From a virus, in the IMG/VR virus record IMGVR_UViG_3300009320_001035, positions 1 through 29,629 of that record: a DNA stretch of 29,629 nucleotides. The stretch is one strand, 5' to 3'. A program made the translations under genes and the position numbers. Positions within the stretch are counted from its first letter, which is position 1, and every line of letters begins with the position of its first letter. Below, piece after piece: positions 13,695 to 29,629 of the stretch. The notes under the pieces are model-generated. The model worked only from the letters and a program-made list of their open reading frames with translations, did no database searches and was not told where the DNA came from.

Positions 13695-14267
13695 CTACCC
13701 ACCTACGTGAACCGACCGGTAATTCCCGTCTTCGGGATAGAAACCCATGAATTTCAGGCGTGTTTTTCCGGTTCGTTCGCCAGGATATAGGAACACAGTC
13801 GGCACGTGGAACTTCCCGTAGAGCTGACTCTCAATGGCACCGATTCGCATGTAAGGATGAAGTGCTTCCAGATTGGTCACCAGGACTATCGCGTCCGACT
13901 TGCCTTCAAGTTTCGCCAACAGCTGCTCAAGTCGCTGCTGGAGCGAACCGTTCGTGAGGGCGTTTTCCAGTGATTCGTTGGTCTTCTCCCATGCCAGCGG
14001 TGCCTTGCGATCGGCAGTAAGCCAGATTTTCCTGAGCGATGCGGATGCAAGAATCTCGGCTATCTGGTCCGCGACGGAGAAGCAATGCACGTCCCAACCT
14101 TCGTTGCGAAGCCGGGCCACCCAGGCAGGGAGCGTCCGCTTCACGTCGAGTATCTGCCCCGGCGGAAACACCAGGTAATATATGGGTTCAAAGCTGGCGT
14201 GTGCCAGATCCCGGCCTTGGCGAATCCGTTCGAGCAGCTCATCGAAGTTAGCCTTCAGCGATGGCAT
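13695..14267 (-). CDS. brxB: BREX protein BrxB (DUF1788)
   Basis: A 190-residue protein matching BrxB (DUF1788): the segment EPIYYLVFPPGQILDVKRTL near the N-terminus, HCFSVADQIAEIL, and a C-terminal FLYPGERTGKTRLKFMGF are typical. Biochemical function is unknown; BrxB is a small core component in most BREX types. ATG 14267 overlaps the end of brxA by 20 bases, implying translational coupling. Length is normal for the family (about 190-200). Confidence 0.94.
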   Translation of the reverse strand: MPSLKANFDELLERIRQGRDLAHASFEPIYYLVFPPGQILDVKRTLPAWVARLRNEGWDVHCFSVADQIAEILASASLRKIWLTADRKAPLAWEKTNESLENALTNGSLQQRLEQLLAKLEGKSDAIVLVTNLEALHPYMRIGAIESQLYGKFHVPTVFLYPGERTGKTRLKFMGFYPEDGNYRSVHVGG

Positions 14268-15033: not shown

Positions 15034-15533
15034 TACTTGTCCGTGAAGTAGGGGTAGACCTCTGTGCAGCGAGCCAGCCCTGTGGCGTAGTACGATGCGA
15101 CTTGTCCCCATGAAGCTCCCTGACGTAGGTCGTCTATCGAACCAACCTTCACAGGTCCGACGCCCTCGTAGTCCTCGGTAGTAGAAATCTTGTTGAGATA
15201 TGTAAAGGCCACTTCGGGGCTTACGACATGCTCGGCAATCACTTGGTTGTGCTGTTGAAGAGCGTCGTGAAGGCTCCGCTCCATATCCTCCGGAAGCCGG
15301 AAGATGTGGAAGACGTTGCCGATGCCGATACGCTCATCGTGAAGGACTGCCGCGACCCGACTTGTCGCATGGTACTGCGCTAGAATCTGGGTTCGAGGGA
15401 AGATCGGACCGAGAAAGGCCTGGCTCCCAGTGCCAAAGAAAGAACTGGACCACCAGCGCTTCTCAGTCTGTTCACCGAGAAAGCCAACAACCGCCCGGAG
15501 AACTGCGAGCTCTCGAAGTTGGTCAACCTTCAT
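15033..15533 (-). CDS. brxE: BREX protein BrxE
   Basis: A 166-residue protein that I recognise as BrxE, a small protein of unknown function described as a component of type 6 BREX. Recognisable segments are VVGFLGEQTEKRWWSSSFF near the N-terminus, ILAQYHATSRVAAVLHDE, and GIGNVFHIFRLPED in the middle. ATG 15533 follows GGTGAACAGC (Shine-Dalgarno GGTGA, spacing 5); in-frame GTG 15542 and TTG 15545 are less likely starts. It is first in the operon and its TAA overlaps the brxA ATG. Presence of brxE in an operon that ends with brxL instead of brxD/brxHI is unusual. Confidence 0.85.
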   Translation of the reverse strand: MKVDQLRELAVLRAVVGFLGEQTEKRWWSSSFFGTGSQAFLGPIFPRTQILAQYHATSRVAAVLHDERIGIGNVFHIFRLPEDMERSLHDALQQHNQVIAEHVVSPEVAFTYLNKISTTEDYEGVGPVKVGSIDDLRQGASWGQVASYYATGLARCTEVYPYFTDK

Positions 15534-17066: not shown

Positions 17067-17263
17067 TAGGGTCTCCGGTTGTGTTGCTCTATGGCAGTAG
17101 TTAGGATTCGCTCGGCCAACGAATCGCCGGAGGCGGTACTCGCCAGGCAAATGCTGCGTCCGACCAGCGGAGTCAACACGCTCCATTCTACCGTCTTGCC
17201 TGCTGTCTCTACCATGGGTTCATTGTGCCCTCCGCAGCCGCCCCCGGCAAGCACGACCTGATC

Positions 17264-18178
17264 TTACGCACTCGACGACGAACTGCTGGACAAGCTGCGG
17301 TTGTCGTCGCCGAGGACTTCGTTGGTGAAATGGAAGAGCATCTCGGTCCCGCCTGCGCCAGTGATGGCTTCGTGGAGCCAGACGGGGGTGCCGACGGGGA
17401 CGGGGAGGTACTCGGGGTCCTTCAGGTCGGCCAGGTCGACGCCGTTGCCCTCGGTTCCCGAGCCGGTATTGATGTCCTCGTACGTGTTCCAGGCGTAGCC
17501 CGTCTTGCCGCCCGAGATCGCGGCCCAGCCGCCGTACCCGGCCGTGTTCTTGTAGGCCTCGGCATACGAGTACTTCCACTTGTTTCCGCCAAGGCTGTTG
17601 ATTGCCGTGATCTCCGCCCAGAAGCCCCGCTCGGTCGGGCTGTCGGACAGTTGCACGACCGCCCACTGCTCGCCGATGCCCGAGGCGTGCCACAGCATCC
17701 GGGCGTTTCCGAGCTGGCAGCTCTCCAGGTACCCCGTCTGGCCGTGGACGAGGTCCGCGCACGGGTGCATCGTGTTGTGGATGATGTCGACCTTGACGGG
17801 CGTGACGCCGCTGACAAGCGCCCGGCCGAACTTGCCATCCTTCACCGGCTCCTGGACGATGGCGATCTTCCCGATGTACGTCGGGATCGCCGGCGTGGCG
17901 GTCGTCATGGCGACGCCGTTCTTGAATCGCTGGAGGTTATCCGTGGGCGTGATTACCGGATTCGCGAGCCCCACGATGGAGAACCGATCGAGGTCGCCGC
18001 CCGTGTCGTTCCGGATGAGAATGATCCCGCTCTGTGCGACGATCGGCGCGGAGGTTCCGGCACCGTACTTCTCCCGCTCCCGGTGCCCCCGGGCGGCGTC
18101 CACAAACCCGTTGAACGTCGATGCGGGAATCCGGACCTTGTCGCCCGTGCTGACCTTCTTGAAGGGGTCGCCGGTCAT
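17264..18178 (-). CDS. Phage structural protein with C-terminal poly-serine tag
   Basis: A 304-residue protein starting at ATG 18178 behind an excellent ribosome binding site (GGGAGGAAAC). It follows the two genes downstream of the tape measure gene, a position of distal tail or fibre proteins. The N-terminus (MTGDPFKKVSTGDKVRIPAS, then FNGFVDAAR) and a beta-rich middle are typical of appendage proteins, and the C-terminal block GNGVDLADLKDPEYLPVPVG continuing through VWLHEAITG is duplicated as a remnant at 15870. It ends in seven serines plus alanine (bases 17270-17290), encoded by a mixture of TCN and AGY codons. It is the last phage gene before the DUF4145/BREX junction; no baseplate or host-binding gene follows. 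Confidence 0.75.
   Translation of the reverse strand: MTGDPFKKVSTGDKVRIPASTFNGFVDAARGHREREKYGAGTSAPIVAQSGIILIRNDTGGDLDRFSIVGLANPVITPTDNLQRFKNGVAMTTATPAIPTYIGKIAIVQEPVKDGKFGRALVSGVTPVKVDIIHNTMHPCADLVHGQTGYLESCQLGNARMLWHASGIGEQWAVVQLSDSPTERGFWAEITAINSLGGNKWKYSYAEAYKNTAGYGGWAAISGGKTGYAWNTYEDINTGSGTEGNGVDLADLKDPEYLPVPVGTPVWLHEAITGAGGTEMLFHFTNEVLGDDNRSLSSSSSSSA
17300..17450 (-). repeat. 151-bp direct repeat, copy B (in intact phage gene)
   Basis: Partner of 15888-16038, same length, same orientation and same reading frame. It lies inside the 3' end of the structural gene at 17264-18178. The DNA between the two copies (16039-17299) carries the DUF4145-like gene. Confidence 0.85.
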
Positions 18179-18189
18179 GTTTCCTCCCG

Positions 18190-19032
18190 TCACGTCCCGA
18201 TGCCGAGGTCGGAGAAGTCGCCGCTGTCGTACACCCGCTCGACGTACACCGCCTTGGGCCGCTTGACGATCGCCTTGGCCGTCGTGTCCTCGGCCTCCTC
18301 GTACCGGACCCACAGGTATTCCCACCCCTTCTTGGCGATGGACGTGATATCGCCCACCGTCAGGCCCGTCCTGTTCGGGCTGGCGGCGAACCGGAAGGTG
18401 ATCTCCCACTGGTCGGTTCCGCGTTGCGAGCCCGATGCGCCGAGGAACAGGACCTCCCCCTCGCTGAAGCCCTTGAACGCGTCGGCGTTCGTCTTGTAGG
18501 TCAGGGCGTACAGCTTGCCCTTGTAGGCCGTCGTGACGGCGCTGTCGGCCATGTAGTGCGTTTCAGAGAAGTGGTACGCCGCCAGGAGGATGTCGGCGCC
18601 TTCGACCTCCTGGCCGTTGAAGCCGATGGCCCCCTTGAAGTCGGGGGCCGTCTCGCCGGCCGGGGCGTAGCTGTTGATCGTCTGCAGGCTCTGCGTGATG
18701 TGCTGCGTGCCGCCGGCGGTGTCGAAGCTGTACGAGGAGTCCCCCGTCTCGGTCGGCTCGCGCTTGCCGTACCGCACGGTGACGCGCCACTCCCCGTCAT
18801 CGGCGTTCGTGTCCACCCACACCGGCTCGATGCCGATGCTCTGCCGCGTAAGGCCCTCGTAGTCGCCGGGGCTGTTCGCCTCCGCGACGGCCTTGACGAC
18901 CGTATCCTCCGCCGTGCCGCTGCACCGGTAGATCAGCTCGACGCTCGCGGCGTCACCCGTGGTCTGCGGCCGGCTGTCGACCATCTCCTCGAACATCCCG
19001 GCAAACGCGCTGCTACTGCTGCTACTGCTCAT
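18190..19032 (-). CDS. Phage tail-region structural protein with N-terminal poly-serine tag
   Basis: A 280-residue protein from ATG 19032, nine bases after the tape measure stop, preceded by AGGACGATGCG. It opens M-Ser7-Ala (serine codons at 19009-19029, all AGY). The rest is a beta-rich protein without transmembrane segments; recognisable stretches are WRVTVRYGKRE, IGFNGQEVEGADI and GWEYLWVRYEEAED. Its place directly after the tape measure gene suggests a distal tail or tail-tip component. I recognise no named family. Confidence 0.7.
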   Translation of the reverse strand: MSSSSSSSAFAGMFEEMVDSRPQTTGDAASVELIYRCSGTAEDTVVKAVAEANSPGDYEGLTRQSIGIEPVWVDTNADDGEWRVTVRYGKREPTETGDSSYSFDTAGGTQHITQSLQTINSYAPAGETAPDFKGAIGFNGQEVEGADILLAAYHFSETHYMADSAVTTAYKGKLYALTYKTNADAFKGFSEGEVLFLGASGSQRGTDQWEITFRFAASPNRTGLTVGDITSIAKKGWEYLWVRYEEAEDTTAKAIVKRPKAVYVERVYDSGDFSDLGIGT

Positions 19033-19041
19033 CGCATCGTC

Positions 19042-21045
19042 CTACCCGAACGCCAAACCGTTCCGTTGCTCTTCGAGGATCTTCCTCGTGTTCGCGGCCG
19101 TCTGCTCGGTGGCGACCGCCGTCCGCTCCGCCGCAGGGCCGGCCGCCCCCAGGCGAGAGGCGAACGCGCCGCTGAACGTCCCCACGACGCCCGCCCTGGC
19201 CTGCTCGACGCCCTCGCCGGCCCCGGCCAGGAGGTTCTTGAACTTGTTGACCAGCGCGTCGGGGCCTTCCAGCGTTCCCGGACCGCCATCGGCGTCCCGG
19301 GCGTCCCGCTTGCCCTTGGCCTCGGCGATCGCGGCCTTCCACTCGTCGCGGGCCGCGCCGAGTTCGGCCTCCGCGGCGGAGATCTGATCGGTGTGCCCCT
19401 TGCTCAGGGCGTCCAGCCGCTTCTGGTGGGCCGTGTCGATGTCGGACAGGACCGTCTCGTGGAGTTTCGCGGAGGCGGTTCTGCTCTTCTGCCGTTCGAG
19501 TTCTCGCTGGGCGGACTTACGCTGCTGCTCATCGTCGATCTCGTTGATGGCCTTGTTGTACTCGACGTCGACCTGCCGGTTGGCCGCCTCCAGGTCGATC
19601 TCCTCGTCGAACAGGCTCTTGATCCAGTTCCACGACTTCTTGGCCACCGCCTTCATGCCCTCCCACGTGCGGCTGAAGAACGCCGTGAAGCCGTACCACG
19701 CCTTGGCCAGGAAGCTCGTCGTCTCGATCCATGCCACTTCCAGCCCGTGCCAGACCGTCGCGGCGACCTTCACCGCCCCGTAGAAGGCCGAGTACGAGAG
19801 CTTGATGAACCACCCTTTGAACGCCTCCCACGCCATCGCGAGGCCCGCGATGCCCCGCTTCCACTCCATCTTCAGCGTCAGCCAGAGGATCTTCGCCGCC
19901 TGGCCGATGTCGCCATCCGCCAGCGCCGCGCTGATCCCTTCCCAGGCCTCCGAGGCATCGGTGCCCAGGACGCCGAACTTCTTCCGCAGCCAGTCGATCG
20001 CCTCGCCGCCCTTGCCGCTGGCGTAGAGCAGGTACGCCCCCATCGCCGCGACCGCCGCGATCACCAAGCCGATGGGGCTCAGCAGCAGGCCGATCATCGA
20101 ACCGAGCACCCCCAGCGCCGCCGACACGCCCGTCAGGATCATCTTGAGCCCCCCGAGGGCCATGCCGACCAGGACAATGCCCTTGCCGAGGATCACCAGG
20201 GCAATCCCGCCGGCCAGAATCCCGGCGGCGACCTGCAGGATCGTCACGACCACCCCGCGATTCTGCCGGATCCACTCCTGAGAGGCGACCACCAGATTCG
20301 TGATCCGCTCCGCCACGTCCTGGAGCACCGGGGCCAGCGCCGCGCCGAGATTGAACACGGCCATCTTCGTGGACTTCCACAGGCCGTCCATCGCGTCGGT
20401 GAAGGCCTCCGCCGCCGCCGCATCCTCGCCCCGCATCGTCAGCCCGAGGGCGCGGGCCTTGGCCTGCAGCTTCTCAATGCCCGCCGCGCCGTCGGCGAAC
20501 ATCGGCAGCAGCATCGTCCCCGCACGGCCGAACAGGCCCATCGCAATGGCCGCCTTCCTGGAGGGGTCCTCCACCTGGCTCAACCGATCGCCGAGGAGCT
20601 TGAACTGCTCTTCGGGGGCCAAGCCGTCGAGATCCTTGAACGTCAGGCCGAGATCGTCCAGGCCGTCCGTCGCCGTCGACAGGCCTCGCCCGGCGTCGTA
20701 GACGCTCCGCTGCATCCGCCGAAGCCCCTTCTCCAGCGTGTCGAGATCGGTCCCCGTCTGGCTGGCGACGAACCGAAGCTCCGAGAGGGCTTCGACGCCC
20801 ACCCCCGTGCGCTTGGCCATCTTCGCGACCGAATCGCCCATCGAGGCGAACACCCTGGACGCCGCGAGCAGCGGCGCCATCATCACCGCGCCCATGCCCG
20901 CCATCTTCAGGCCGAGGCCGCTGACCATCGAGCCGAAGGCCTTCAGCTTCGCCGAGGCGGCCTTCAGGCCCCGGATGAGCTTGCTGTTGTCGGCGAACAG
21001 TTCGACGTACGCCTTGCCGGCTCGAATTCCTCTGGTGGATGGCAT
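19042..21045 (-). CDS. Phage tail tape measure protein
   Basis: A 667-residue tape measure protein, which sets tail length and is ejected with DNA. ATG 21045 (MPSTRGIRAGKAYVELFADN) overlaps the stop of the preceding chaperone frame (TGATG); this opening, with SKLIRGLKAASAKLKAFG next, is typical. Hydrophobic segments include GLGLKMAGMGAVMMAPLLAA (about 44-63), VVVTILQVAAGILAGGIALVI (near 265-285) and LGSMIGLLLSPIGLVIAAVA (near 320-340). The C-terminal third is Ala/Glu/Lys-rich coiled coil. At 667 residues, a short-to-moderate siphovirus tail is expected. Confidence 0.9.
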   Translation of the reverse strand: MPSTRGIRAGKAYVELFADNSKLIRGLKAASAKLKAFGSMVSGLGLKMAGMGAVMMAPLLAASRVFASMGDSVAKMAKRTGVGVEALSELRFVASQTGTDLDTLEKGLRRMQRSVYDAGRGLSTATDGLDDLGLTFKDLDGLAPEEQFKLLGDRLSQVEDPSRKAAIAMGLFGRAGTMLLPMFADGAAGIEKLQAKARALGLTMRGEDAAAAEAFTDAMDGLWKSTKMAVFNLGAALAPVLQDVAERITNLVVASQEWIRQNRGVVVTILQVAAGILAGGIALVILGKGIVLVGMALGGLKMILTGVSAALGVLGSMIGLLLSPIGLVIAAVAAMGAYLLYASGKGGEAIDWLRKKFGVLGTDASEAWEGISAALADGDIGQAAKILWLTLKMEWKRGIAGLAMAWEAFKGWFIKLSYSAFYGAVKVAATVWHGLEVAWIETTSFLAKAWYGFTAFFSRTWEGMKAVAKKSWNWIKSLFDEEIDLEAANRQVDVEYNKAINEIDDEQQRKSAQRELERQKSRTASAKLHETVLSDIDTAHQKRLDALSKGHTDQISAAEAELGAARDEWKAAIAEAKGKRDARDADGGPGTLEGPDALVNKFKNLLAGAGEGVEQARAGVVGTFSGAFASRLGAAGPAAERTAVATEQTAANTRKILEEQRNGLAFG

Positions 21046-21257
21046 CAGGTCCTGCCCTTGAATCTCGCTCGAAGCATCGCCCACGACTCTTCCGGCGGCA
21101 CCGCAGACTCCGCCACGTGGAGCGGGTTGAAGTCCCGCGGCTTCGCGGGCCTCTGGCCCTTGCCGCGGAACACGTTCGCAATCATCGCCAGGACCGAACT
21201 CGTGTGTCCCCACGCCGCCTCACTGCGGCCGCGGGCCATTTCCACGAGCTGCCGCAA
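21045..21257 (-). CDS. Tail assembly chaperone, second frame (lambda T-like)
   Basis: From TTG 21257 it has 70 codons (RQLVEMARGR, AAWGHTSSVLAMIANVF, DFNPLH), resembling the downstream chaperone frame of siphophages. It lies in the -1 frame relative to the preceding chaperone. Protein-like sequence continues upstream of the TTG, overlapping the end of that gene: GSDVWRSVWQLAGIVGVDPG and then PLTLRQ, from about base 21345. No ATG or GTG start exists there, so the frame is probably entered by ribosomal frameshifting, as in lambda G/GT, or by coupling. The candidate slip region CTGGAAAGG at about 21345 is not a canonical heptamer. Confidence 0.7.
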   Translation of the reverse strand: MRQLVEMARGRSEAAWGHTSSVLAMIANVFRGKGQRPAKPRDFNPLHVAESAVPPEESWAMLRARFKGRT

Positions 21258-21259
21258 CG

Positions 21260-21736
21260 TCAGCGGTCCGGGGTCGACGCCGACGATCCCGGCAAGTTGC
21301 CAGACAGAGCGCCAGACATCGCTTCCTGTAACTGCCTTTCCAGGTCGCCGCTGTCGAGCTTGGCCTCGCTCATCCGGATCGCCGTCGCTTCCAGCGTCTT
21401 CAGCTTGCCGAGAGCCTTGGCCAGGAGCCCCCGGCGGGGCTGAGGGAAGAACGCGACCAGCTCCTCGAGGAACGCCTCGGAGGCCCGCTCGATCGCATCG
21501 CCGGCCATGGCCCGGCCGAAGTCCTCATCACTGACCTTGTCCCGGTCCGCCTGGTCCTTGCAGAGGCAGTAGACCGCGTCCACCAGGAGCACCGGATCGC
21601 CCGCCAGCCGCTCGATCAGCTTGCCGTCGAGCGCATCCATCAAGTCGACGTCCAGGAGATCCTTGACCCGCTTGATCGCCGTGACGTTGATCTCGACTTC
21701 CCACGCGCGGCCCTTGCTGTCCTCAAACTTCCTCAC
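21260..21736 (-). CDS. Tail assembly chaperone, first frame (lambda G-like)
   Basis: A 158-residue protein from GTG 21736 with GGGAGCGTGAGGC before it. The opening RKFEDSKGRAWEVEINVTAI and the helical, acidic body (LMDALDGKLIERLAGDP, LCKDQADRDKVSDEDFGRAM) are typical of the protein between tail tube and tape measure genes that keeps the tape measure soluble during assembly. The last 30 codons overlap a second coding frame. Position, length and composition support the call. Confidence 0.82.
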   Translation of the reverse strand: MRKFEDSKGRAWEVEINVTAIKRVKDLLDVDLMDALDGKLIERLAGDPVLLVDAVYCLCKDQADRDKVSDEDFGRAMAGDAIERASEAFLEELVAFFPQPRRGLLAKALGKLKTLEATAIRMSEAKLDSGDLERQLQEAMSGALSGNLPGSSASTPDR

Positions 21737-21762
21737 GCCTCACGCTCCCATCCGCCGGCCGG

Positions 21763-22215
21763 TCAGGCCGAGCTGCTGGAGGATTCCACGTCCAGCCACT
21801 GGCTGAACAGGGACAGCTTCGCCGTCACCGAAACCGAGATCGCTTCCTCCAGCGGCTCGGAGCGGCTGAAGTTCGTGATCTCGAAGTCGCCGACCAGGCC
21901 TTCCGTGCCGACGGCGTCCTTGGCCCCGGTAAGCGCCGCCAGGCGGAGGGGCGTGCCGTTGATGAAGGCGTTCTTGACGGCGATAAAACCCGCATCCGCC
22001 TCCTTCCAGACCATCTCCCACTCCACGGTGCCTTCCCGCAGCGTGGCGGCGGTGGCTCGCCAGCCGCTGTTGGCGCGGGTCGTGACGTCGGCCTCGCCCC
22101 TTTCCATGGGCACCGTCAGGTCCTTGACGTTCGTCATCTCCGTCAGAATCGCGAGGGCCGCGCCTTCGGCGCCGTAGTACAGCTTGGCGTCCATTCCGAG
22201 TTTGTAGTCGGGCAT
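21763..22215 (-). CDS. Major tail tube protein with C-terminal poly-serine tag
   Basis: A 150-residue protein from ATG 22215 with AGGAGAGACAAGC upstream. The opening MPDYKLGMDAKLYYG, ILTEMTNVKDLTVPM and the middle EADVTTRANSGW with TLREGTVEWEMVW are characteristic of siphovirus tail tube subunits. It precedes the two chaperone frames and the tape measure gene. It ends in five serines and alanine (bases 21769-21783, TCC TCC AGC AGC TCG), a tag shared with other virion proteins here. Confidence 0.88.
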   Translation of the reverse strand: MPDYKLGMDAKLYYGAEGAALAILTEMTNVKDLTVPMERGEADVTTRANSGWRATAATLREGTVEWEMVWKEADAGFIAVKNAFINGTPLRLAALTGAKDAVGTEGLVGDFEITNFSRSEPLEEAISVSVTAKLSLFSQWLDVESSSSSA

Positions 22216-22227
22216 TGCTTGTCTCTC

Positions 22228-22668
22228 CTATCGAACCGAGTTCGCCCACATGGCGGGCAGCTTCGGCTGTTCCCGCTCGAAGGCCGGGCCCATGTAGGGC
22301 CGCGGCCGGATCTTCACTCTCCGCGTGCGGCGGTTGCGTCGCAGGCCCACCCGCATGGCGGACGTCCCGCCGTGCTCGAGCGCCTCTGGGGCGCTGCCGA
22401 CTTTCTGGTTGAGCTTCATCGGGCCGATGACGACCGACCGGCGGGCGTCGTCGTAGCCGAAGAGGATGTACCTCTTCAGCAGGCCGCCGTGGCTGCTCGG
22501 CGGCTCGCCCGGGCGGCTGATCCGCTTGCGCTTCCGGATGCTCGACCGCGCGGCCGTCCGCACGAACGCCCCGAAACGCCCCAGCACCCGCCGCGTGGCC
22601 TTGTCGACCGCGCGGGCGACCTTCGGCGCGTCGAAGAACATCCGCTTGGTCACGAAGCCGATCATCAT
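22228..22668 (-). CDS. Tail completion / neck protein (HK97 gp10-like)
   Basis: A 146-residue basic protein; ATG 22668 overlaps the stop of the holin-like gene (ATGA). Segments SIRKRKRISRPGEPPSSHG, VVIGPMKLN and the C-terminal RPYMGPAFEREQPKL match the minor virion proteins of the HK97 gp10 group that sit between head connector and tail tube. The gene order (just before the tail tube gene) agrees. Confidence 0.78.
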   Translation of the reverse strand: MMIGFVTKRMFFDAPKVARAVDKATRRVLGRFGAFVRTAARSSIRKRKRISRPGEPPSSHGGLLKRYILFGYDDARRSVVIGPMKLNQKVGSAPEALEHGGTSAMRVGLRRNRRTRRVKIRPRPYMGPAFEREQPKLPAMWANSVR

Positions 22669-22895
22669 TGCCCCGGTCGCGTTGCGTCCGACCTGTCCAC
22701 CGAGGCCTCGATCACGCCGTACCCGAGGGCGGCGAGGACCAGGACCACGAGTTCCGCGATCTTGACCGCGCTGCTTTCCAGGACCTCGCCCTGGCCCGGC
22801 GTGAAGATCGCCACGCACGCGGCGATCTGGACCAGCAGGGCCGTGAGGAACTTGCGGCTCGAAAGGCGTTTCAGGATGTCGTGCAGTGTGTCCAT
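22665..22895 (-). CDS. Holin-like small membrane protein
   Basis: A 76-residue protein from ATG 22895 behind a strong AGGAGTGAC site. It has a basic N-terminal stretch (ILKRLSSRK) and two hydrophobic segments (FLTALLVQIAACVAIF and AELVVLVLAALGYGVIEA), a topology common in phage holins. It lies with a lipoprotein gene in the late operon, but no endolysin is seen in the window, so a lysis role is inferred from topology only. Confidence 0.55.
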   Translation of the reverse strand: MDTLHDILKRLSSRKFLTALLVQIAACVAIFTPGQGEVLESSAVKIAELVVLVLAALGYGVIEASVDRSDATRPGQ

Positions 22896-22896
22896 G

Positions 22897-23106
22897 TCAC
22901 TCCTTGTCCGGCTCATTGTCCGGCCGGTCGTGTTGACCCGCGTCGTGAATCTCGTCCGTCGTGGCCTCGTTGGAAGCCAGCGCCGCAGCCATTTCCTCGT
23001 CGCTCGGGTCTTGCCCGGCGTTGATGAAGTTGTCGATGATCTGCATCGCCGGTTCCGCGATCAGGCCGCCGATGTACAGCCATTGAAGGATCTCCAGCGG
23101 TGTCAT
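22897..23106 (-). CDS. Small phage protein of unknown function
   Basis: A 69-residue protein from ATG 23106, with AAAGGAGCATCCCC as a good ribosome binding site. The start overlaps the lipoprotein stop (ATGA). The N-terminal 25 residues (TPLEILQWLYIGGLIAEPAM) are amphipathic to hydrophobic, and the remainder is acidic and hydrophilic (DPSDEEMAAAL, RPDNEPDKE). No family recognised. Confidence 0.6.
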   Translation of the reverse strand: MTPLEILQWLYIGGLIAEPAMQIIDNFINAGQDPSDEEMAAALASNEATTDEIHDAGQHDRPDNEPDKE

Positions 23107-23480
23107 GGGGATGCTCCTTTCCCGTGGGTGTCGTGCCATTGCCTGCCCTGCATCTGCCTGGTGACGAGTTCGAGCAGGATCTGATTCCACTCGCGAATGA
23201 CGCTCGACGTGGGCTGGCCGAGTTCGATTGCCGCCTCCCACCGGGCGAGCATCTCCATCGCGGCGTCCGCCGTGTCGTCGATCACCTTGCCCTGCGATTC
23301 CGTGAAGGCCCCCGCCGTACGATAGAGGACAATGGCCCTTCCCGCCGCGTCGTATGCCTTCCGCGCAGCCAGTAGGTCCTGCTTCGGCGTCGTCGGCCAC
23401 CAGGACGGCTGCGTCGTGCAGCCGCTTGCCGGAAGCGTGAGGATCAGGGCCGTGGCCATCCACTGCAGTGCGCGTTTCAT
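23103..23480 (-). CDS. Phage-encoded lipoprotein
   Basis: A 125-residue protein from ATG 23480 (ATGA overlap with the kinase-like gene upstream; GGAGTCGGACA before it). It begins with a lipoprotein signal peptide: basic MKR, hydrophobic MATALILTLPASG, and lipobox Cys at residue 21. The mature part is helical (LLAARKAYDAAGRAIVLY, MEMLARWEAAIELG). A position beside a holin-like gene allows an outer-membrane spanin-like or superinfection-exclusion role, but neither is shown. Confidence 0.7.
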   Translation of the reverse strand: MKRALQWMATALILTLPASGCTTQPSWWPTTPKQDLLAARKAYDAAGRAIVLYRTAGAFTESQGKVIDDTADAAMEMLARWEAAIELGQPTSSVIREWNQILLELVTRQMQGRQWHDTHGKGASP

Positions 23481-23881
23481 TGTCCGACTCCTTCCCCGGG
23501 GCAGGCGCCCCGGAACATTTCCGCGAGTTCTTCCTTGCCCGGTTCCTCGTACGTCGTGCCCTCCCACAGCGTCCCGCCCGGCAGGTAGATCAACTGCGAA
23601 GCCGACCACATCTTCCGGGCCATCATGCGGAGATCCTTCGTCGGTGCGAACAGCTCGACGATCACGGTGTAGCCCTGCTCCTCGAGCAGTGCCGCAAACG
23701 TCGCGACCAGCTTGACGTTCCGCTTGCGGCCGGCGTCGGTGTACGCCGACGGGAACCACTTGCGGACCCGCGCGCCGTCCAGGACGGTCACACGCTCGCC
23801 CCGCTGGGACCGTTCGTAGGCCATGCGGTAGGCCAGCGTCGTCTTGCCCGCGCCGGATTTGCCCGTGATGAAGTGGACCAT
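23477..23881 (-). CDS. Adenylyl-sulfate kinase-like P-loop protein
   Basis: A 134-residue protein from ATG 23881, overlapping the upstream stop (TGATG). It carries Walker A ITGKSGAGKTTLA (GKSGAGKT at 7-14), LDGARVRKWF at 34-43 (APS kinases have LDGD-R) and RKRNVKLVATFAALLEEQGY, matching the APS kinase helix with R-N-I-R. APS kinase phosphorylates adenylyl sulfate to PAPS, the sulfate donor for sulfotransferases. The protein is shorter than cellular CysC (about 200): the region after YTVIVELFAPTKDLR is compressed, though a YEEP motif near the end is kept. The second Asp of LDGD is Ala here, so substrate may differ. Confidence 0.72.
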   Translation of the reverse strand: MVHFITGKSGAGKTTLAYRMAYERSQRGERVTVLDGARVRKWFPSAYTDAGRKRNVKLVATFAALLEEQGYTVIVELFAPTKDLRMMARKMWSASQLIYLPGGTLWEGTTYEEPGKEELAEMFRGACPGEGVGQ

Positions 23882-24234
23882 CAGGCCGGCTCCTCAGCAG
23901 CCGCGCTGCTCTCGCGGATCTCCGTGGCCGAGATCGCCTCGATCTCCGCGGGCAGGTCGATCTGCACGACCTCCCACCCGACGTCCCGGCCGTGGACGAC
24001 GTGCGTGATGTCGGCCTTCAGGTTGATGATGCGAATCGCGCCCGCGTCGATCTCGGCGCGGTACCTCTCGCGGAACATCTCCCGGCGATCCTTGACGGTG
24101 TGCGGATTGTCCTCGCCGACCTCCGTCTCCCGCAGGCCGATCACCACCTGCCCGTAGCGCTGGATCGCCTCGCGGATCAGGGCGTCGTGCCCGTCGTGGA
24201 GCGGCTGGTATCGCCCGATCAGTAGTGCTGCCAT
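23881..24234 (-). CDS. Nucleotidyltransferase of the NMNAT/cytidylyltransferase fold
   Basis: A 117-residue protein from ATG 24234, two bases after the methyltransferase stop. It opens IGRYQPLHDGHDALIREAI with the nucleotide-binding HDGH at 13-16 and ends with ISATEIRES, the second conserved motif of this fold. The middle RETEVGEDNPHTVKDRREMF is also typical of NadM-like proteins. It transfers a nucleotidyl group from an NTP to a phosphorylated acceptor; the acceptor here is unknown. NAD metabolism, or activation of a sugar or sulfate moiety for the neighbouring enzymes, are both possible. Confidence 0.8.
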   Translation of the reverse strand: MAALLIGRYQPLHDGHDALIREAIQRYGQVVIGLRETEVGEDNPHTVKDRREMFRERYRAEIDAGAIRIINLKADITHVVHGRDVGWEVVQIDLPAEIEAISATEIRESSAAAEEPA

Positions 24235-24236
24235 GT

Positions 24237-24809
24237 TTACACCCACACCAGGCCGAAGCCGGTAAAGCCCTGAACGAGCAGCGTGTTCTTTCGTTCCCCG
24301 AGGTCGCGCCAGACGGCGTTGACGCTCGGGCGGTGCCTGCGTGCCATCCCGTCGTTCTCGCACTCACCGCAGTCGTGGAAGATCACCAACCCGCCGGGCC
24401 TGACCAGCGGAGCGTAGTGATACGCATCGCACGCGACGCCGTGGATGGAGTGGTCCCCGTCGATCAGCAGCACGTCCACCGGACGCCCGCCGAGGATCGT
24501 CTGGACCTGCTCGACCGTCGCCGGGTCGAAGCTGCTGGCGAGGATCACGTCGGCGTCGTAGCCGTCCGCCTCGCAGAGTTCCTCGGCCATCGCCACCAGC
24601 CGCTCGCCCTGATTGCCCTTCGGCGGCGGGCTGGGGCGGTCCACGGCGATCAACTTCGCGCCCGGGTCCATCATGCGACCGAACACGCGGAGCGATCCGC
24701 CGTGGCGGCTGCCGATCTCCAGGTACGTCTTCTTCGGGTCGATCTCGGCGACGTGCTCCTGCACGATGCCGAGCGCCCACTTGTTCATCAGCGGTGCGGG
24801 GTCAGGCAT
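24237..24809 (-). CDS. Class I SAM-dependent methyltransferase (CmcI/Methyltransf_24-like)
   Basis: A 190-residue protein from ATG 24809, overlapping the end of the glycosyltransferase gene by eight bases. Motif I is YLEIGSRHGGSLRVF (about 29-43), and the post-motif Asp lies in IAVDRP. The downstream VDVLLIDGDHSIHG with LVRPGGLVIFHDC is typical of the small-molecule and sugar methyltransferases related to cephalosporin hydroxylase. The context suggests methylation of a sugar. Confidence 0.82.
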   Translation of the reverse strand: MPDPAPLMNKWALGIVQEHVAEIDPKKTYLEIGSRHGGSLRVFGRMMDPGAKLIAVDRPSPPPKGNQGERLVAMAEELCEADGYDADVILASSFDPATVEQVQTILGGRPVDVLLIDGDHSIHGVACDAYHYAPLVRPGGLVIFHDCGECENDGMARRHRPSVNAVWRDLGERKNTLLVQGFTGFGLVWV

Positions 24810-26574
24810 GGGCGGCTTCCTTTCCGGCTTCGATCAGAGCCTCCGTGCCGGGCAGATGCCCGAACAACTGCACCGACAGCGCGACCAGTTCCTCATCCTT
24901 GAAGGCATCGCGGAACCACGGCTTGTCGGCGCAGTTCTTCCACCGCTCGGTGTAGCTGCCCTGGCGAGCCCGCCCGTCGAGCTTGCGGTGCTCGAACGAA
25001 CTGCCCGCGCCCTGAATCGGCACGCGGTTCATCGAGTCGTCGCTGCGGAGGTCGAGGCCGAGCCACTCGAAAAGCTCATCGCGATAGGCCGCGTCGCAGA
25101 GCCAGCGGTTGTAGTTGATCGCCACCTCGCCCGGGGGGTGTTCCTCGATGATCCGCAGACACTCCCGGGCGTAGTGCTTCCACCGATCGGCCCAGCGGGC
25201 GATGCCTTCGGTCGTCGGCTCGCCTGTCTCGGTCGGCTTGTGAATGAGCGTCCAGTCCCCCCGTCGTTGGCCCATCTTGACCGTGCTCGCCAGGTGGTTG
25301 AACGGGTCGCGGATCAGAAAGACGCGCGTGCGGCGCGGGGTCTCGACGCCGCCCAGGTAATCGACCTGATCCGGGGGCGTGTCCTCATGCGAGCACAGCA
25401 CCATCGCGAGGTCGGCGCCGCGGAACGCCGCCAGCGGTTCGCGCCTGGGGATGCAGGGCAGGCGACTCGACCGACGAGCGCTGCGGTTCTGATCGATACT
25501 GTTGCGGAACAGCACCCGGCCGTCGGTCTGCGACGCGATCCAGTCGAGAACGGGGTGCCCGGCCGATCGCTTCATGTGCGCGAAGGCGATCTCCCGCTTG
25601 GCCCGGAATCGCTCGACCCGGTGGATCGCCCCGCCCTGCCGGTAGCGATTCACGGCCCGGCACACATCCTCGGGCGTGATCATGTCCATGCAGCGCGGAA
25701 TGCTGACGTCGCCCGCCGGAACCGGATGCTCACAGACCTTCTTGCGGTCCTTCTTGCTGCCGTCGCCCATCTTGTGGCAACGGGATCGCCAGCAGCCGCC
25801 CTTCTCGCAGCACGGCAGAGCCCCCACCGTGTGGAGGAACTGATGGGCCGGGTAGGCCTCCCAATGGGTAGGCTCGCGGCCGCCGGCGATCACGACGCAG
25901 GGGCGGTTGATGAGCCGTCCTGGCGGGGTCGGAACCGCCGCCGCCAGGTGCATGGCCATCGTCACGGGGCAGATCACGCCCGCGGCGTGATGGACCAGAC
26001 GCACGAACTGGCGGAGGTCGGTCTTGCCGACGAGATTCAGTACGCCCTCCAGCGGCGGGTGCCAGTGCTTTGATTCGCCGCACTGGACGAACTGCACTTT
26101 TCCGGCCAGCCGGTTGACGACTTCCTGGTAGTACGCGGGCGACCACCACTTCGCGGTGAAGTCGAACTTCCCGCCCGCCACGATGATCCAGAAGTCGCCC
26201 TTGTGGCCGAAGGTCTCCTCGACCTGGTTCGTCCACGATTTCTCCTCATCCGACAGGTGGATGTCGCCGCTGAACGGGCCTTGGGGGATCGAGATGCCGA
26301 GCTTGCCCTCCAGGAACTTCCGGAAGCCGTGGATAAAGTGGTACGGCAGCTTGTTGCTCCGGTGGATCAGCGGGTACTGGCACTTGATGTGCTCGGCGTC
26401 GGGATCGTCGTCCGCGATCTCCGTCAGGTGCGGGTTGTTCTCCCACAGCGCAGGCGCCGCCGTGCGCACGTCGATCTGCCAGTCGGGATGCGCGCGTTTG
26501 AGGTCGCGCACCGCCGCCGTCAGCATTACCACGTCGCCAGGCGACTGCCGGTTGGTGAGGATCAGCTTCTTCAT
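24802..26574 (-). CDS. Fusion: GT9-type glycosyltransferase + sulfotransferase-like domain
   Basis: A 590-residue protein from ATG 26574 (GGGAACC before it). The N-terminal part (1 to about 300) looks like family 9 glycosyltransferases (heptosyltransferase type): SPGDVVMLTAAVRDLKRAHP at 11-30, an acceptor-domain opening near 130-165, and the nucleotide-sugar region VICPVTMAMHLAAAVPTP with VVIAGGREPTHWEAY. A Cys cluster follows (LPCCEKGGCWRSRC). The C-terminal part (about 370-580) resembles a sulfotransferase: TRVFLIRDPFNHLAST near 415-430 as a 3'-phosphate-binding type motif, then INYNRWLCDAAYRDELFEWL. It could add and sulfate a sugar, with the APS-kinase-like neighbour supplying PAPS. The GT9 call is firm; the sulfotransferase call is moderate. 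Confidence 0.78.
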   Translation of the reverse strand: MKKLILTNRQSPGDVVMLTAAVRDLKRAHPDWQIDVRTAAPALWENNPHLTEIADDDPDAEHIKCQYPLIHRSNKLPYHFIHGFRKFLEGKLGISIPQGPFSGDIHLSDEEKSWTNQVEETFGHKGDFWIIVAGGKFDFTAKWWSPAYYQEVVNRLAGKVQFVQCGESKHWHPPLEGVLNLVGKTDLRQFVRLVHHAAGVICPVTMAMHLAAAVPTPPGRLINRPCVVIAGGREPTHWEAYPAHQFLHTVGALPCCEKGGCWRSRCHKMGDGSKKDRKKVCEHPVPAGDVSIPRCMDMITPEDVCRAVNRYRQGGAIHRVERFRAKREIAFAHMKRSAGHPVLDWIASQTDGRVLFRNSIDQNRSARRSSRLPCIPRREPLAAFRGADLAMVLCSHEDTPPDQVDYLGGVETPRRTRVFLIRDPFNHLASTVKMGQRRGDWTLIHKPTETGEPTTEGIARWADRWKHYARECLRIIEEHPPGEVAINYNRWLCDAAYRDELFEWLGLDLRSDDSMNRVPIQGAGSSFEHRKLDGRARQGSYTERWKNCADKPWFRDAFKDEELVALSVQLFGHLPGTEALIEAGKEAAHA

Positions 26575-26580
26575 GGTTCC

Positions 26581-26772
26581 CTACGGTGCGGGCTGCTCCG
26601 GCTGCTCCGGGACCTCGGGCGTGACCGCGTCGAGGACGGCCTTCTCATCCGCGATCTGCACGTTGAGCGGGTCGAGCTTCTTTCGGTACTCGGCCCGCAG
26701 TGCCGTCCGCCTTGCCTTCAGCCTTACCAGCCGGTCGGCGACGCGTTTTCGTGCTCGGGCACTGATTGCCAT
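26581..26772 (-). CDS. Small basic/helical phage protein
   Basis: A 63-residue protein from ATG 26772, with an excellent AGGAGAACGAC ribosome binding site. The first 45 residues are highly basic and helical (AISARARKRVADRLVRLKAR); the end is acidic and Pro-rich (PEVPEQPEQPAP). It sits between the poly-serine protein and the glycosyltransferase fusion. No family recognised. Confidence 0.6.
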   Translation of the reverse strand: MAISARARKRVADRLVRLKARRTALRAEYRKKLDPLNVQIADEKAVLDAVTPEVPEQPEQPAP

Positions 26773-26801
26773 GTCGTTCTCCTGTCGCTGCGGGGTTGCC
26801 G

Positions 26802-27641
26802 CTATGCGCTGCTGCTACTGCTGGAACTGCTGCTTGTCGCATCTTCGCCCTCGGTGTAGAGCACCACGCAGCCGTCTCCGTCGGTGGCCACGGCGAAGCC
26901 GTAGTCGCTCAGGTCCGCGTTGGGGGGAAGCTCGAGCGCCTCGCCCGGCGCGAGCACCCACGCAGCGTTCATCGGGTCCGTCTTCGCCCAGATGTAGACG
27001 TTGCCCGTGTTCACGCCGGGCAGTGCGTCGCCCAGCGGGAACTCGGCCTCGGCCTCGGAGCTGCTCGAACTGCTCGGGGCTGCGCTGCTAGACGAACTGC
27101 TGGAGCTGGAGCTGGAGCTGCTGCTCGAGCTGCTGCTCCCCGCGACCTCGCTCGGCTTGACGGCCTGGACCTTCGCCTGAATGTAGGGGCGCGACTGCTC
27201 GGACAGCAGGACGGTCGCGATGCCCGCAGCTTGGCCGCTCGAACTCGACGCCGAGGACGCATCAGCGATCACACGCAGCATCGACCTTAGCGGGCGGGCG
27301 TTGCCCTGGTGCTCGGGCACGGCTTCCTGCACCGCGTCGTTGACGAGTTGAAGCGTGCTCTCCGTCGCCTGCCCGCTGCCGTTGCTCTGGATCGCTGACA
27401 GCGCCGCGGCCAGTGTCGTCTGCGTAGCCGGATCGCCCGACAGCTTCGTCAGGATCGACTGCAGGACGGTCTCCAGGTCCGCCTGCGTCTTGCCGTTGGC
27501 GATGCCGTCCACGATCGCGGTCACGTCCACGTCCGCCACGTCGACCGACAACTCGGCGTCGCCGATCTTGACCAGCAGCGCGCCGGTGTCGTCGTCGATC
27601 ATCACGTCGACCGAGCCGATATGTCGCCTGGCATACCCCAT
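26802..27641 (-). CDS. Poly-serine virion-type protein of unknown function
   Basis: A 279-residue protein from ATG 27641, one base after the preceding stop, with GGAGAG upstream. Residues 1-110 contain beta and helical segments (SVDVMIDDDTGALLVKIGDA near the start, then a tail-fibre-like linker). A tract of about 18 serines, Ala-Ala-Pro and six more serines (bases 27057-27137) divides it from a C-terminal domain (NVYIWAKTDPMNAAWVLAPG, ALELPPNADLSDYGFAVA). It ends with nine serines and alanine (26808-26834). Serine codons mix TCN and AGY, so the tracts are held at protein level. The gene lies in the head-tail part of the late operon; fibre or decoration roles are possible. Confidence 0.6.
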   Translation of the reverse strand: MGYARRHIGSVDVMIDDDTGALLVKIGDAELSVDVADVDVTAIVDGIANGKTQADLETVLQSILTKLSGDPATQTTLAAALSAIQSNGSGQATESTLQLVNDAVQEAVPEHQGNARPLRSMLRVIADASSASSSSGQAAGIATVLLSEQSRPYIQAKVQAVKPSEVAGSSSSSSSSSSSSSSSSSSAAPSSSSSSEAEAEFPLGDALPGVNTGNVYIWAKTDPMNAAWVLAPGEALELPPNADLSDYGFAVATDGDGCVVLYTEGEDATSSSSSSSSSA

Positions 27642-27642
27642 C

Positions 27643-28080
27643 TCAAATCTCTCCGATCACGCGGAACGTCAGCGTCAGGAGGCTCGTCAGTTGCCGCATC
27701 TCGCGCAGGTGCTCGGGGTCGTAGACCGGGACGTTCTCCGTCCGCAGCCACATCGCGCCGGTGTCCGCGAGGGACTGGCGCGCGAAGTGGGCGCCGATCT
27801 CCTCGACGAGCGTCAGCAGCGCGTCGATCTGCTCGGACTCCGTGGCCGCGTCAGCGAGTTTCTGCTGGACGGCGATGTCGATCTGGACGTCCTCCTGCGG
27901 GATCGTCCTCGCGGCGGTCTCGAGCTCCCGGCCCTTGGGGACGACCGTCACGTGCAGCTCCGCCATGTCCTTCAGTTCGAAGATGGGCACGTACTTCCGC
28001 TCTGCCGTGAAGGCCTGCGAGAAGCTCCCGGCGTTCAGTTCGTCGGTGACGGCCTGCGCGATGTCGGCGATCTTCGACAT
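27643..28080 (-). CDS. Phage neck/tail-terminator-like protein
   Basis: A 145-residue protein; ATG 28080 overlaps the preceding stop (TAATG). The sequence (SKIADIAQAVTDELNAGSFS, FELKDMAELHVTVVPKG, then a helical region and VIGEI at the end) and its place between connector-like and tail genes suit a head-tail joining or tail-terminator protein. The family call is by position and general look, not by a diagnostic motif. Confidence 0.6.
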   Translation of the reverse strand: MSKIADIAQAVTDELNAGSFSQAFTAERKYVPIFELKDMAELHVTVVPKGRELETAARTIPQEDVQIDIAVQQKLADAATESEQIDALLTLVEEIGAHFARQSLADTGAMWLRTENVPVYDPEHLREMRQLTSLLTLTFRVIGEI

Positions 28081-28361
28081 TACTCCTCGATCTCCACGTC
28101 GAGCTTGGCGGCGAGCTTGACGACGTTCTTGTCCGTGCGGTTGATGGTGGAGGCGATCTCCCGCAGCCAGACCTCGCGACCGTGGCAGCGAGTGTGGATC
28201 GAGTCGATCTCGGTCTTCAACAGCTCGATCTGACCTTCCAGGGCCACCAGGCGGCTCCGCAGGTTGAATACCCCGGAGATCACCCACCACGCCGAGCCGG
28301 TCAGGACGCCGCCGCCCAGCAGGACCGCCGCGACGCCGAAGATGATCTGTGCCGTGTTCAT
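28080..28361 (-). CDS. Small membrane protein with coiled coil
   Basis: A 93-residue protein from ATG 28361 (TGATG overlap; an in-frame GTG 28364 is possible). Residues 4-32 form one hydrophobic segment (IIFGVAAVLLGGGVLTGSAW), and 35-90 are a heptad-rich helix (LRSRLVALEGQIELLKTEID). An N-terminal membrane anchor followed by a coiled coil is the layout of inner-membrane spanins (Rz-like), but the call is topological only. Confidence 0.6.
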   Translation of the reverse strand: MNTAQIIFGVAAVLLGGGVLTGSAWWVISGVFNLRSRLVALEGQIELLKTEIDSIHTRCHGREVWLREIASTINRTDKNVVKLAAKLDVEIEE

Positions 28362-28744
28362 CACGCGTCCTCTGTCTCCACGTGCTTCGTGTGTACCCGC
28401 AGCGTCTTGCGGTACGGGTCCGAGAACCTGTAGTGCGGCTCGGCACCCGGCGCCATGACCTCGTAGACGTACACGGCTCCGCCGGCCGACTCGCGGATCC
28501 GATCGCCGCGCTGCGGCAGCGTCTCCACATCCGCGAGCACGAGCTGCTCGGTCGGGATCAGGAAGTCCCGCGACTCGACCCGCTCGATGATCCCGTGGGC
28601 GTCGGCGACCTCGAAGACCGTCCGTCCGATCGCTGCCGAGACATCCACGGACAGCGCGTCGCGGACATAGGTCACCGTCCGCGACATGTGCGCGATCCGA
28701 TGCTCATCCAGCCACGCCGAGCCTTGCTCGAGCACGTCCGTCAT
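28361..28744 (-). CDS. Putative phage head-tail connector protein
   Basis: A 127-residue protein from ATG 28744 with GGGTGAGT before it (GTG 28747 also possible). It directly follows the DUF2190-type capsid gene. The opening TDVLEQGSAWLDEHRIAHMS and the middle TVFEVADAHGIIERVESRDF with IPTEQLVLAD are typical of small phage proteins at this position, and the C-terminal segment (DPYRKTLRVHTKHVE) is beta-rich. A connector or neck role is inferred from gene order. Confidence 0.6.
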   Translation of the reverse strand: MTDVLEQGSAWLDEHRIAHMSRTVTYVRDALSVDVSAAIGRTVFEVADAHGIIERVESRDFLIPTEQLVLADVETLPQRGDRIRESAGGAVYVYEVMAPGAEPHYRFSDPYRKTLRVHTKHVETEDA

Positions 28745-28754
28745 CACTCACCCG

Positions 28755-29629
28755 TCAGGCCGCGTTGGTCGGGATGTACCGCAGGATCACCGAGAACGCG
28801 GGCAGGTCCGCCGTGGTTCCCTGCGTCACCGAGAGCGTCACGTGCTCCCCGGCTGCCAGAGCCTTGTGCGTCGCATCCGGTGTGCCGAGGTCCTCGTAGT
28901 CGCTGCTCGGCGGCTGCGTGCCCGCGTCGTACGTTTTGGAAACGATCTCGTTGCTCCCATCGTCGGCCAGGGCCACAACGGCCGTGTTGGAGTCGTCCAC
29001 ATCCGCCGGGGCGCCCTCGGTCAGGATGCCGACCGATACGAGCGTCACCGCCCGGGGATGGACGAACACCGGCCGGGCACTGATGTCGGCCCCGGCGGCG
29101 AGGTCCTCGACGCGGATGATCGCCAGCTGCTCGGCGTGGGCGTCGTTGAGCGTCAGCGTCCCGTCGGCAGCCAGTGTCGCATCGCCCGAGACCGCCACGT
29201 CCTCGAAGCTGTCCCCGTCGGCAACGAGGATCCGCCCGGCCGTGTAGAGCACCGCTCCCACGTCCGAGAGGTCCCCCAGGCCCAGCGTCTCGGCCGCTGC
29301 GGCGGAGGGAACGAGCAGGATGCGCACCGTCGAACCCGTCTCGGCGGCTGCAACCAGGACGAAGCCCAGGAAGGTGTTGCCCGAGGCCGTCGCCGTCGCG
29401 GCTCCGGTCCCGGCCGTGCCGCCGTAGGGATCGCCGTCGGCGTCCCAGTAGACCTTGCCCCCGACGGTGGCGAAGGCCTCCTGGGCCTTGACCACGTCGA
29501 AGATGCCCGTGACGGCCAAGGCGCCCAAGACGCTGGCCGCGATGGGCTGCTTGGCGATGCCGATCAGGCCGCTGAGGACCACCACGTCCCCGGCCGCCAC
29601 GGCGCTGCCGGGCGTGTAATCGATTGCCG
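28755..29629 (-). CDS. DUF2190-type capsid decoration/cement protein, 5' end cut by window
   Basis: The frame runs to the right edge of the window without a start. In-frame codons upstream of GTG 29600 read AIDYTPGSAVAAGDVVVLSG, which is the usual N-terminus of DUF2190 proteins, so the true start lies outside. The N-terminal domain (VVVLSGLIGIAKQPIAASVL, ALAVTGIFDVVKAQEAFATV) is the family's beta-barrel; a variable middle and a C-terminal beta domain (about residues 170-281) follow. DUF2190 proteins are small capsid-associated (cement/decoration) proteins encoded near the major capsid gene. At least 291 residues are visible, longer than many members (about 110), because of the added C-terminal part. 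Confidence 0.8.
   Translation of the reverse strand, partial: AIDYTPGSAVAAGDVVVLSGLIGIAKQPIAASVLGALAVTGIFDVVKAQEAFATVGGKVYWDADGDPYGGTAGTGAATATASGNTFLGFVLVAAAETGSTVRILLVPSAAAAETLGLGDLSDVGAVLYTAGRILVADGDSFEDVAVSGDATLAADGTLTLNDAHAEQLAIIRVEDLAAGADISARPVFVHPRAVTLVSVGILTEGAPADVDDSNTAVVALADDGSNEIVSKTYDAGTQPPSSDYEDLGTPDATHKALAAGEHVTLSVTQGTTADLPAFSVILRYIPTNAA

Follow-up and report, generated by a model that had tools for sequence, protein, structure and literature searches.

The 29.6 kb viral contig IMGVR_UViG_3300009320_001035, all 29,629 nt of which were analyzed (hereafter the window), carries at positions 23477-26574 of the minus strand a cassette of four co-directional genes that overlap or abut one another. 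They encode a fusion of a glycosyltransferase family 9 (GT9)-like domain to a sulfotransferase (ST) domain, a methyltransferase, a short nucleotidyltransferase (NTase), and an adenosine 5'-phosphosulfate (APS)-kinase-like protein. We found that the kinase and the NTase are an obligate pair in phages and that, in unrelated phages, this pair recurs in operons with sulfotransferase genes. We tentatively propose that the pair is a miniature phage 3'-phosphoadenosine 5'-phosphosulfate (PAPS) synthase, in which a lid-less APS kinase works with an NMNAT-like core that has become a sulfate adenylyltransferase, and that fused or overlapping glycosyl- and sulfotransferases sulfate sugars on poly-Ser tags of the phage particle. 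Such a pair would represent a third route to APS, unrelated to ATP sulfurylase and to CysDN.

An initial annotation had delimited the cassette and named a family for each gene. Translations and open reading frame (ORF) positions bear out its coordinates and gene order, and its fold and family assignments hold for all four genes, by Pfam matches and, for the ST half of the fusion, by an AlphaFold2 model.

Conservation of the cassette in related contigs

All four genes occur in the same order in L002, which is near identical to the window, and in L003, whose fusion is 78% identical. L146, a GC-rich phage contig, carries the fusion, the NTase, and the kinase in order, between tail neighbors of the same kinds, without the methyltransferase (gene calls in relatives are approximate and rest on a crude composition score, since ORF length is no guide to genes where GC content is high). 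Because the gene order recurs in L002, L003, and, minus the methyltransferase, in L146, the cassette is not a chance assembly, and because L146 keeps the other three genes, we define these as its core. On the question of whether all four genes move together in other phages, the answer was thus yes for L002 and L003 and no for L146.

The methyltransferase is of class I (Methyltransf_24, 9.7e-15, 55.8 bits against a cut-off of 26.3; RMNT_CmcI, 1.1e-9, 38.8 bits against a cut-off of 23.2) and did not reach the NCBIfam rhamnosyl methyltransferase equivalog cut-off. Since L146 does without it, the methyltransferase is dispensable, contrary to its earlier placement in one joint pathway, and is most likely an optional cap.

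The C-terminal half of the fusion has a predicted sulfotransferase fold

The ST half of the fusion had no match in Pfam, NCBIfam, or PDB sequences, where the search returned only unrelated chance matches. Structure prediction of this half had been named beforehand as the test of the sulfotransferase assignment, and it yielded a sulfotransferase fold. The AlphaFold2 model (pLDDT 77, pTM 0.81) gave a best Foldseek E-value of 7.7e-5, with all 50 of the matches listed belonging to the sulfotransferase superfamily, and VIA aligned it to PAPS-dependent sulfotransferases with a Z-score of 13.1 (4.3 A over 214 residues). The motifs K/R-R-S-x-x-H, near the N-terminus, and RDPFNHLAS are kept, and Arg18, His22, Arg104, Asp105, Ala111, and Ser112 are invariant in the 10 rows of alignment A3; we take these motifs to bind the 5'- and 3'-phosphosulfate of PAPS. 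The domain is therefore very probably, as judged from the model, a PAPS-dependent sulfotransferase. It shares its fold (Z 11-13) and the RDPxxxxAS and RSxxH motifs with cytosolic and tyrosylprotein sulfotransferases, although it is only ~10% identical to them, has no Pfam match, and is fused to a GT9-like domain.

The N-terminal domain matched Glyco_transf_9 with 36.9 bits (Pfam cut-off 22). Like the GT9 heptosyltransferases WaaC/F/Q, it belongs to Pfam GT9 and has weak NCBIfam matches to WaaF and WaaQ, whereas its family has its own Cys-rich C-terminal signature (CC..GGCW...CMDMIT), is centered on phages and the Planctomycetota-Verrucomicrobiota-Chlamydiota (PVC) bacteria, and lies beside Ser-rich proteins. 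ST relatives of the A3 type were present in 11 of 64 GT9 loci and fused in three (L004 and L005 were excluded from counts, being the same contigs as L022 and L035). An independent GT9-ST fusion was found in a Verrucomicrobiota genome bin (L055), and on the 159 kb phage contig of L022 a separate ST gene (PF13469, 7.8e-9) overlaps the GT9 gene; no GT-ST fusion was found in the phage collection. In L041, L043, L054, L013, L046, and other loci the GT9-like domain lies inside ORFs of 600-1184 aa, fused to various other domains.

The kinase and the NTase form an obligate pair

The window kinase has a P-loop, and the first Asp, both Arg, and the Asn of the DGDxxR and DRxEN motifs are kept in the three window-lineage sequences. 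Across the phage kinases aligned, the Arg of DGxxVR, the Arg of DRxEN, and the Pro of an SP motif were kept in 70 of 70 sequences (the boundary filter removed 10 of 48 fused kinases); we assume that these are the APS-binding residues. Close relatives of the window kinase alone were limited to L002 and L003 in the viral scan. Five weak matches in the phage collection were considered as further close relatives and rejected, the four that were read being full-length host-type APS kinases.

The NTase is a 117-aa protein with the motifs GRYQPxHxGH, GRDVGW, and EIEAISATEIR and a CTP_transf_like match (PF01467, 2.2e-7). Its alignment has 22 near-invariant positions, including the shared catalytic GR.QP.H.GH and ISAT.IR motifs, and two extra arginines, Arg35 and Arg83, were invariant in 76 of 76 sequences (a domain-length filter removed four of 78 NTase rows). 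It resembles the archaeal-type NMN adenylyltransferase NadM and the PPAT CoaD in fold and in the GRxQPxHxGH and ISxTxIR motifs, and differs from them in being shorter and in the invariant Arg35 and Arg83. In the comparison with MJ0541, the residue aligned to Arg35 is other than Arg, and the alignment breaks where the phage NTase is shorter. The truncation removes the nucleoside-binding segment of NMNAT, which, from our reading of the alignment, presumably holds the nicotinamide part in NadM. None of the NCBIfam NMNAT equivalog cut-offs was reached (best 40.6 bits against 397; TIGR01527, 28.5 against 181.2). ATP sulfurylase also uses an Arg in its GRD motif, and the two extra arginines and smaller pocket of the phage NTase would suit sulfate or another small anion. 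The NTase thus probably works like a miniature ATP sulfurylase without being a member of that family; ATP sulfurylase was not among the matches listed for its model (50 Foldseek, 50 VIA), which does not exclude a structural match. A search of alignment A4 against 199 genomes of one phylum gave 11 weak matches.

When viral contigs were scanned with the NTase alignment, 292 were confirmed; 80 of these were retained, and leaving out L002 and L003 gave the 78 loci counted. The NTase was accompanied by a kinase in 77 of these 78 phage loci, as a fusion in 48 and as separate genes in 29, with a single locus lacking a kinase. The two halves of phrog_10255 are matched separately, the N-terminal one by the window kinase (1.6e-5) and the C-terminal one by the window NTase (6.2e-15). 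This 230-aa family is labeled 'kinase' in PHROG, which gives no substrate; in the window, by contrast, the pair is split into two genes within a GT-ST operon. The pair shares with PAPS synthase the two-activity logic of a P-loop kinase and a HIGH-superfamily NTase, and the window kinase matched residues 56-151 of the 630 residues of human PAPSS1, in which the kinase precedes the NTase as in the phage fusions. Unlike PAPS synthase, the phage version is only ~250 aa, its NTase core is NMNAT/PPAT-like and not of the ATP-sulfurylase family, and its kinase is lid-less.

ST genes and DUF2061 genes accompany the pair

An ST gene was present in 17 of 78 NTase loci, whereas none of the control stretches (33 from other phages, 38 from other genomes) had one. 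In nine of the 78 loci, representing 5 of 38 sequence clusters, the ST gene was no more than 60 nt from the pair, with a 4-nt overlap in seven of the nine. Of the gene slots adjacent to the pair, 9 of 152 contained an ST gene, compared to 9 of 1021 among the other genes (p 1.4e-4, without correction for relatedness). In L231, which is unrelated, one closely spaced and mostly overlapping run comprises genes for a tail-region protein, a GT-like protein that matches alignment A1 weakly (E 1.3e-4) and has no Pfam match, an ST, a kinase, an NTase, and DUF2061. The ST-kinase-NTase operons of L231 and of two further unrelated phages, L171 and L200, sit among virion or tail-fiber genes.

The small membrane protein DUF2061 (PF09834, 7.7e-19 for L199) was found in 28 of 78 NTase loci, nearly always beside the NTase, and in none of the 33 and 38 control stretches. 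Among genomes, it was present in 7 of 99 in one phylum setting and 2 of 61 in another, with one genome in both. In four of eight bacterial genomes inspected, DUF2061 adjoins cysH-cysD-cysN, a sulfate-activation operon; with NCBIfam, CysD and CysN were confirmed in each of the four, and CysH in the two whose CysH was searched. As the other four genomes have no cys neighbors, we rejected DUF2061 as a universal sulfate marker. The part of PMC12442407 that names a Shewanella gene lists it only as a gene of unknown function. The NTase of L146 (L146:6765-7202, plus strand) has an N-terminal hydrophobic, membrane-like segment that echoes the DUF2061 membrane partner found elsewhere.

The ST-kinase-NTase operons and the link of DUF2061 to sulfate activation strengthen the earlier suggestion that the cassette supplies PAPS, and on sequence grounds the kinase-NTase pair is the probable source. 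The first enzyme of this supply step is probably the NTase, which the initial annotation had left without a function.

Two further features of these loci were recorded. Of the 78 NTase loci, 25 share a 2-oxoglutarate-Fe(II) oxygenase cluster (PF13640 for L207), and several oxygenase-like genes follow the ST-kinase-NTase operon in L171 (L171:3130-5588). In Clavibacter phage 33, Xanthomonas phage AhaSv, and Stenotrophomonas phage DLP_6 the pair lies among DNA-metabolism genes; the idea that it is unrelated to sulfation was dropped on the wider locus set.

Ser-rich proteins lie near the GT9-like gene

The poly-Ser-tagged proteins reported beside the cassette were confirmed by translation. Four window proteins have Ser tracts at their start or end, and these are encoded by a mixture of AGY and TCN codons, which points to serine, rather than a repeat in the DNA, as the object of selection. 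Using a threshold of at least 13 Ser in 20 residues, 20 of 35 viral loci had Ser-rich tracts around the GT9-like gene, compared to 3 of 33 stretches from the same phage set; for bacterial loci the figure was 15 of 29, compared to 2 of 38 stretches from the same genome set. The association held when one locus was retained per 80% cluster (13 of 26 viral loci, p 8e-4; 13 of 24 bacterial loci, p 2e-5).

In the bacterial bins L045, L047, L061, and L063, GT9-like genes lie <500 nt from Ser-rich tracts of neighboring ORFs, including ORFs of ~2100-2260 aa, hinting that the GT9-like/Ser-rich pairing also exists outside phages. In AT-rich phages, adenylosuccinate-synthetase-like genes (possibly PurZ, by eye) lie near the GT9-like gene (L006:3447-4460 and L008:11082-12083).

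Proposed pathway and alternatives

From the folds, the conservation of gene order, the obligate pairing of kinase and NTase, and the operons in which ST, kinase, and NTase recur together, we infer the chemical steps and the acceptor as follows. The cassette would be a late-expressed phage modification set in which the NTase joins ATP and sulfate to form APS and the APS-kinase-like protein phosphorylates APS to PAPS, the two acting as a compact phage PAPS synthase encoded by two adjacent genes here and as one ~250-aa protein elsewhere. The GT9-like domain would place a sugar on the Ser-rich tags of virion (mostly tail) proteins, the fused ST domain would sulfate that sugar with PAPS as donor, and the methyltransferase would cap the sugar in some phages. 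The particle would thereby gain a glycan coat, negatively charged and here and there methylated, that could serve adsorption, shielding, or stability. We regard the whole chain, with PAPS made by the pair, virion proteins glycosylated and sulfated by the fusion, and methylation optional, as the best of the explanations weighed, its likelihood approaching but not reaching the probable.

Several observations weigh against this pathway. In the window lineage an Ala replaces the second Asp of the DGD motif, and the KGLY/FTGI lid is missing from all three window-lineage sequences and from 66 of 67 other phage kinases, while it is present in all four standard APS kinases aligned. Because of the missing lid, and because its TIGR00455 score (51.5 bits) is below the cut-off of 138.7, we did not file the window kinase as CysC; the earlier label APS-kinase-like stands as a family match and does not extend to a standard APS kinase. 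The closest PDB sequences to the NTase are NMN adenylyltransferases (7.8e-11), its fold is closest to PPAT/NMNAT (Z about 10), and no ATP-sulfurylase family matched it in Pfam or NCBIfam (E up to 1) or in PDB sequences (up to 0.01). No such ST was present within the fetched flanks of 61 of the 78 NTase loci. When 32 longer NTase records were searched in full, Sulfotransfer_1 was found in 13 (nine over the cut-off) and Sulfotransfer_3 in six (five over the cut-off); many NTase phages thus have no recognized ST. In the other direction, an NTase is absent from 38 of the 39 remaining phage records with GT9 or ST, so host PAPS may usually suffice. To these are added the genomes in which DUF2061 is not beside cys genes, the methyltransferase missing from L146, and the lack of poly-Ser in the whole 22.9 kb of that contig despite its GT-ST/NTase/kinase core. 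The Ser-rich signal may also partly reflect tail location, the controls being unmatched for structural genes.

The resemblance of the NTase to NMN adenylyltransferases fits a different product, with the pair making NAD or an NDP-activated sugar or alditol (kinase step, then nucleotidyl transfer) and the ST drawing on host PAPS. NadR and HldE are precedents of kinase/NTase fusion, the kinase lid is missing, and in isolate phages kinase-NTase fusions lie far from glycan genes. We nonetheless find this explanation doubtful, given that the APS-binding residues are kept in every phage kinase aligned, that the NTase is without the NMNAT nucleoside-binding segment and has its two invariant extra Arg, and that DUF2061 and ST genes neighbor the pair.

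The target of the modification is a separate matter. The poly-Ser tracts could be plain flexible linkers or tags whose closeness to the GT9-like gene comes only from a common tail location; L146 has a Gly/Pro-rich linker at the place of the window's Ser18 tract with the same enzymes, and 29 of 64 GT9 loci have no Ser-rich tract at the threshold used. We consider this rather improbable, as the association holds in the 29 bacterial loci against stretches of the same genome set and after dereplication, and terminal S5-9A tags with mixed codons occur on several proteins. That the cassette alters the host envelope (for example, the lipopolysaccharide (LPS) core or a surface glycan), like phage conversion genes, seems unlikely: its overlapping genes lie inside a late structural/lysis operon, the operons of L171, L200, and L231 lie among virion and tail-fiber genes, the Ser-rich association holds against control stretches, and inspection of the window by eye showed neither a flippase nor a polymerase gene. 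It would nevertheless accord with the GT9 enzymes of known substrate, which by family name are LPS heptosyltransferases, with the presence of the GT9-like family in bacterial genomes, mainly of PVC bacteria, and with L146, which keeps the core without poly-Ser virion proteins. The suggestion of virion decoration, as first made, thus gains from gene location and the Ser-rich association and loses from L146, and we favor the virion, on sequence evidence, as the likelier target.

In mycobacteriophages, phage-encoded glycosyltransferases are thought to glycosylate capsid or tail proteins (PMC11256854), and, unlike here, the abstract of that paper names no sulfotransferase or PAPS-making genes. We found no paper on phage-encoded virion sulfation or a phage PAPS synthase in the open-access literature that was searched. 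If the proposed pathway is correct, phages add sulfate to their own virions, and the compact enzyme with which they activate it is currently annotated 'kinase' or 'cytidylyltransferase' across hundreds of viral contigs, with 292 confirmed. This would assign a function to phrog_10255, provide a new way of making PAPS that is useful for enzymatic sulfation, and give a testable reason for poly-serine tags recurring in phages and in Planctomycetota-Verrucomicrobiota bacteria, in which the GT9/Ser-rich link would predict O-glycosylation of Ser-rich proteins.

Genomic setting of the cassette

The features of the window are listed in Table 1. The phage structural setting described initially was recovered, with PHROG matches in the window to tape measure and head decoration proteins and, through the L002 homologue, to a major tail protein. 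Amid these head and tail genes, the minus-strand order is poly-Ser protein, 63-aa gene, GT9-ST fusion, methyltransferase, NTase, kinase, and lipoprotein-like gene. The fusion and methyltransferase genes overlap by 8 nt, the NTase and kinase genes by 1 nt, and the kinase and lipoprotein-like genes by 4 nt. The NTase ATG at 24234 abuts the methyltransferase stop codon, and an alternative GTG a few codons upstream would overlap the methyltransferase gene. Family searches gave no convincing match for the 63-aa protein.

Table 1. Cassette genes, candidate acceptors, and context genes of the window
Feature	Position	Strand	Basis
Protein ending in Ser7-Ala tag; candidate acceptor, start codon uncertain	17264-18409	-	Translation
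Protein with N-terminal Ser7 tract; candidate acceptor	18190-19032	-	Translation
Tail tape measure protein (context)	19042-21213	-	PHROG tape measure 3.2e-42
Major tail protein, C-terminal Ser5-Ala tag; candidate acceptor	21763-22215	-	Homologue L002:6655-7110 matches PHROG major tail protein 2.1e-14
Lipoprotein-like gene (LPASGC, by eye)	23103-23480	-	Translation; overlaps kinase stop; late-operon context
APS-kinase-like P-loop kinase, 134 aa, lid-less	23477-23881	-	PF01583 2e-16; PDB APS kinases 8.5e-11; residue comparison
Short NMNAT/PPAT-fold NTase; proposed compact ATP sulfurylase	23881-24234	-	PF01467; alignment A4; AlphaFold2 model; fold search
Class I (CmcI/Methyltransf_24) O-methyltransferase, accessory	24237-24809	-	Pfam; in L002 and L003, not L146
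GT9-like and ST fusion, 590 aa	24802-26574	-	
ST domain, fusion residues 319-590	24805-25620	-	AlphaFold2 model, Foldseek, VIA; motifs in alignment A3
GT9-like (heptosyltransferase-family, GT-B) domain, fusion residues 1-314	25633-26574	-	Pfam PF01075 3.1e-9; alignment A1; 35 viral and 29 genome relatives
63-aa protein between poly-Ser protein and fusion, same operon	26581-26772	-	ORF only
Virion-type protein, internal Ser18 and Ser6 tracts, C-terminal Ser9-Ala tag; candidate acceptor	26802-27641	-	Translation

Directly downstream of the phage tail genes, the window, although its record is classed as viral, contains a complete-looking type 1 BREX set (BrxL, PglZ, PglX, BrxC, BrxB, and BrxA; 522-15111, minus strand) with strong PADLOC matches (weakest best E 3.8e-109). 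The GC content of this region is 0.59, compared to 0.66-0.68 in 17200-29629, and the set is either phage-borne or at a prophage/host junction. On the contig of L146, a DISARM/type IIG-like methylase gene (DrmMI, 1e-88; L247:2-3283, minus strand) lies on the same side of the tail genes, and the end of the late operon may be a recurrent site for defense genes.

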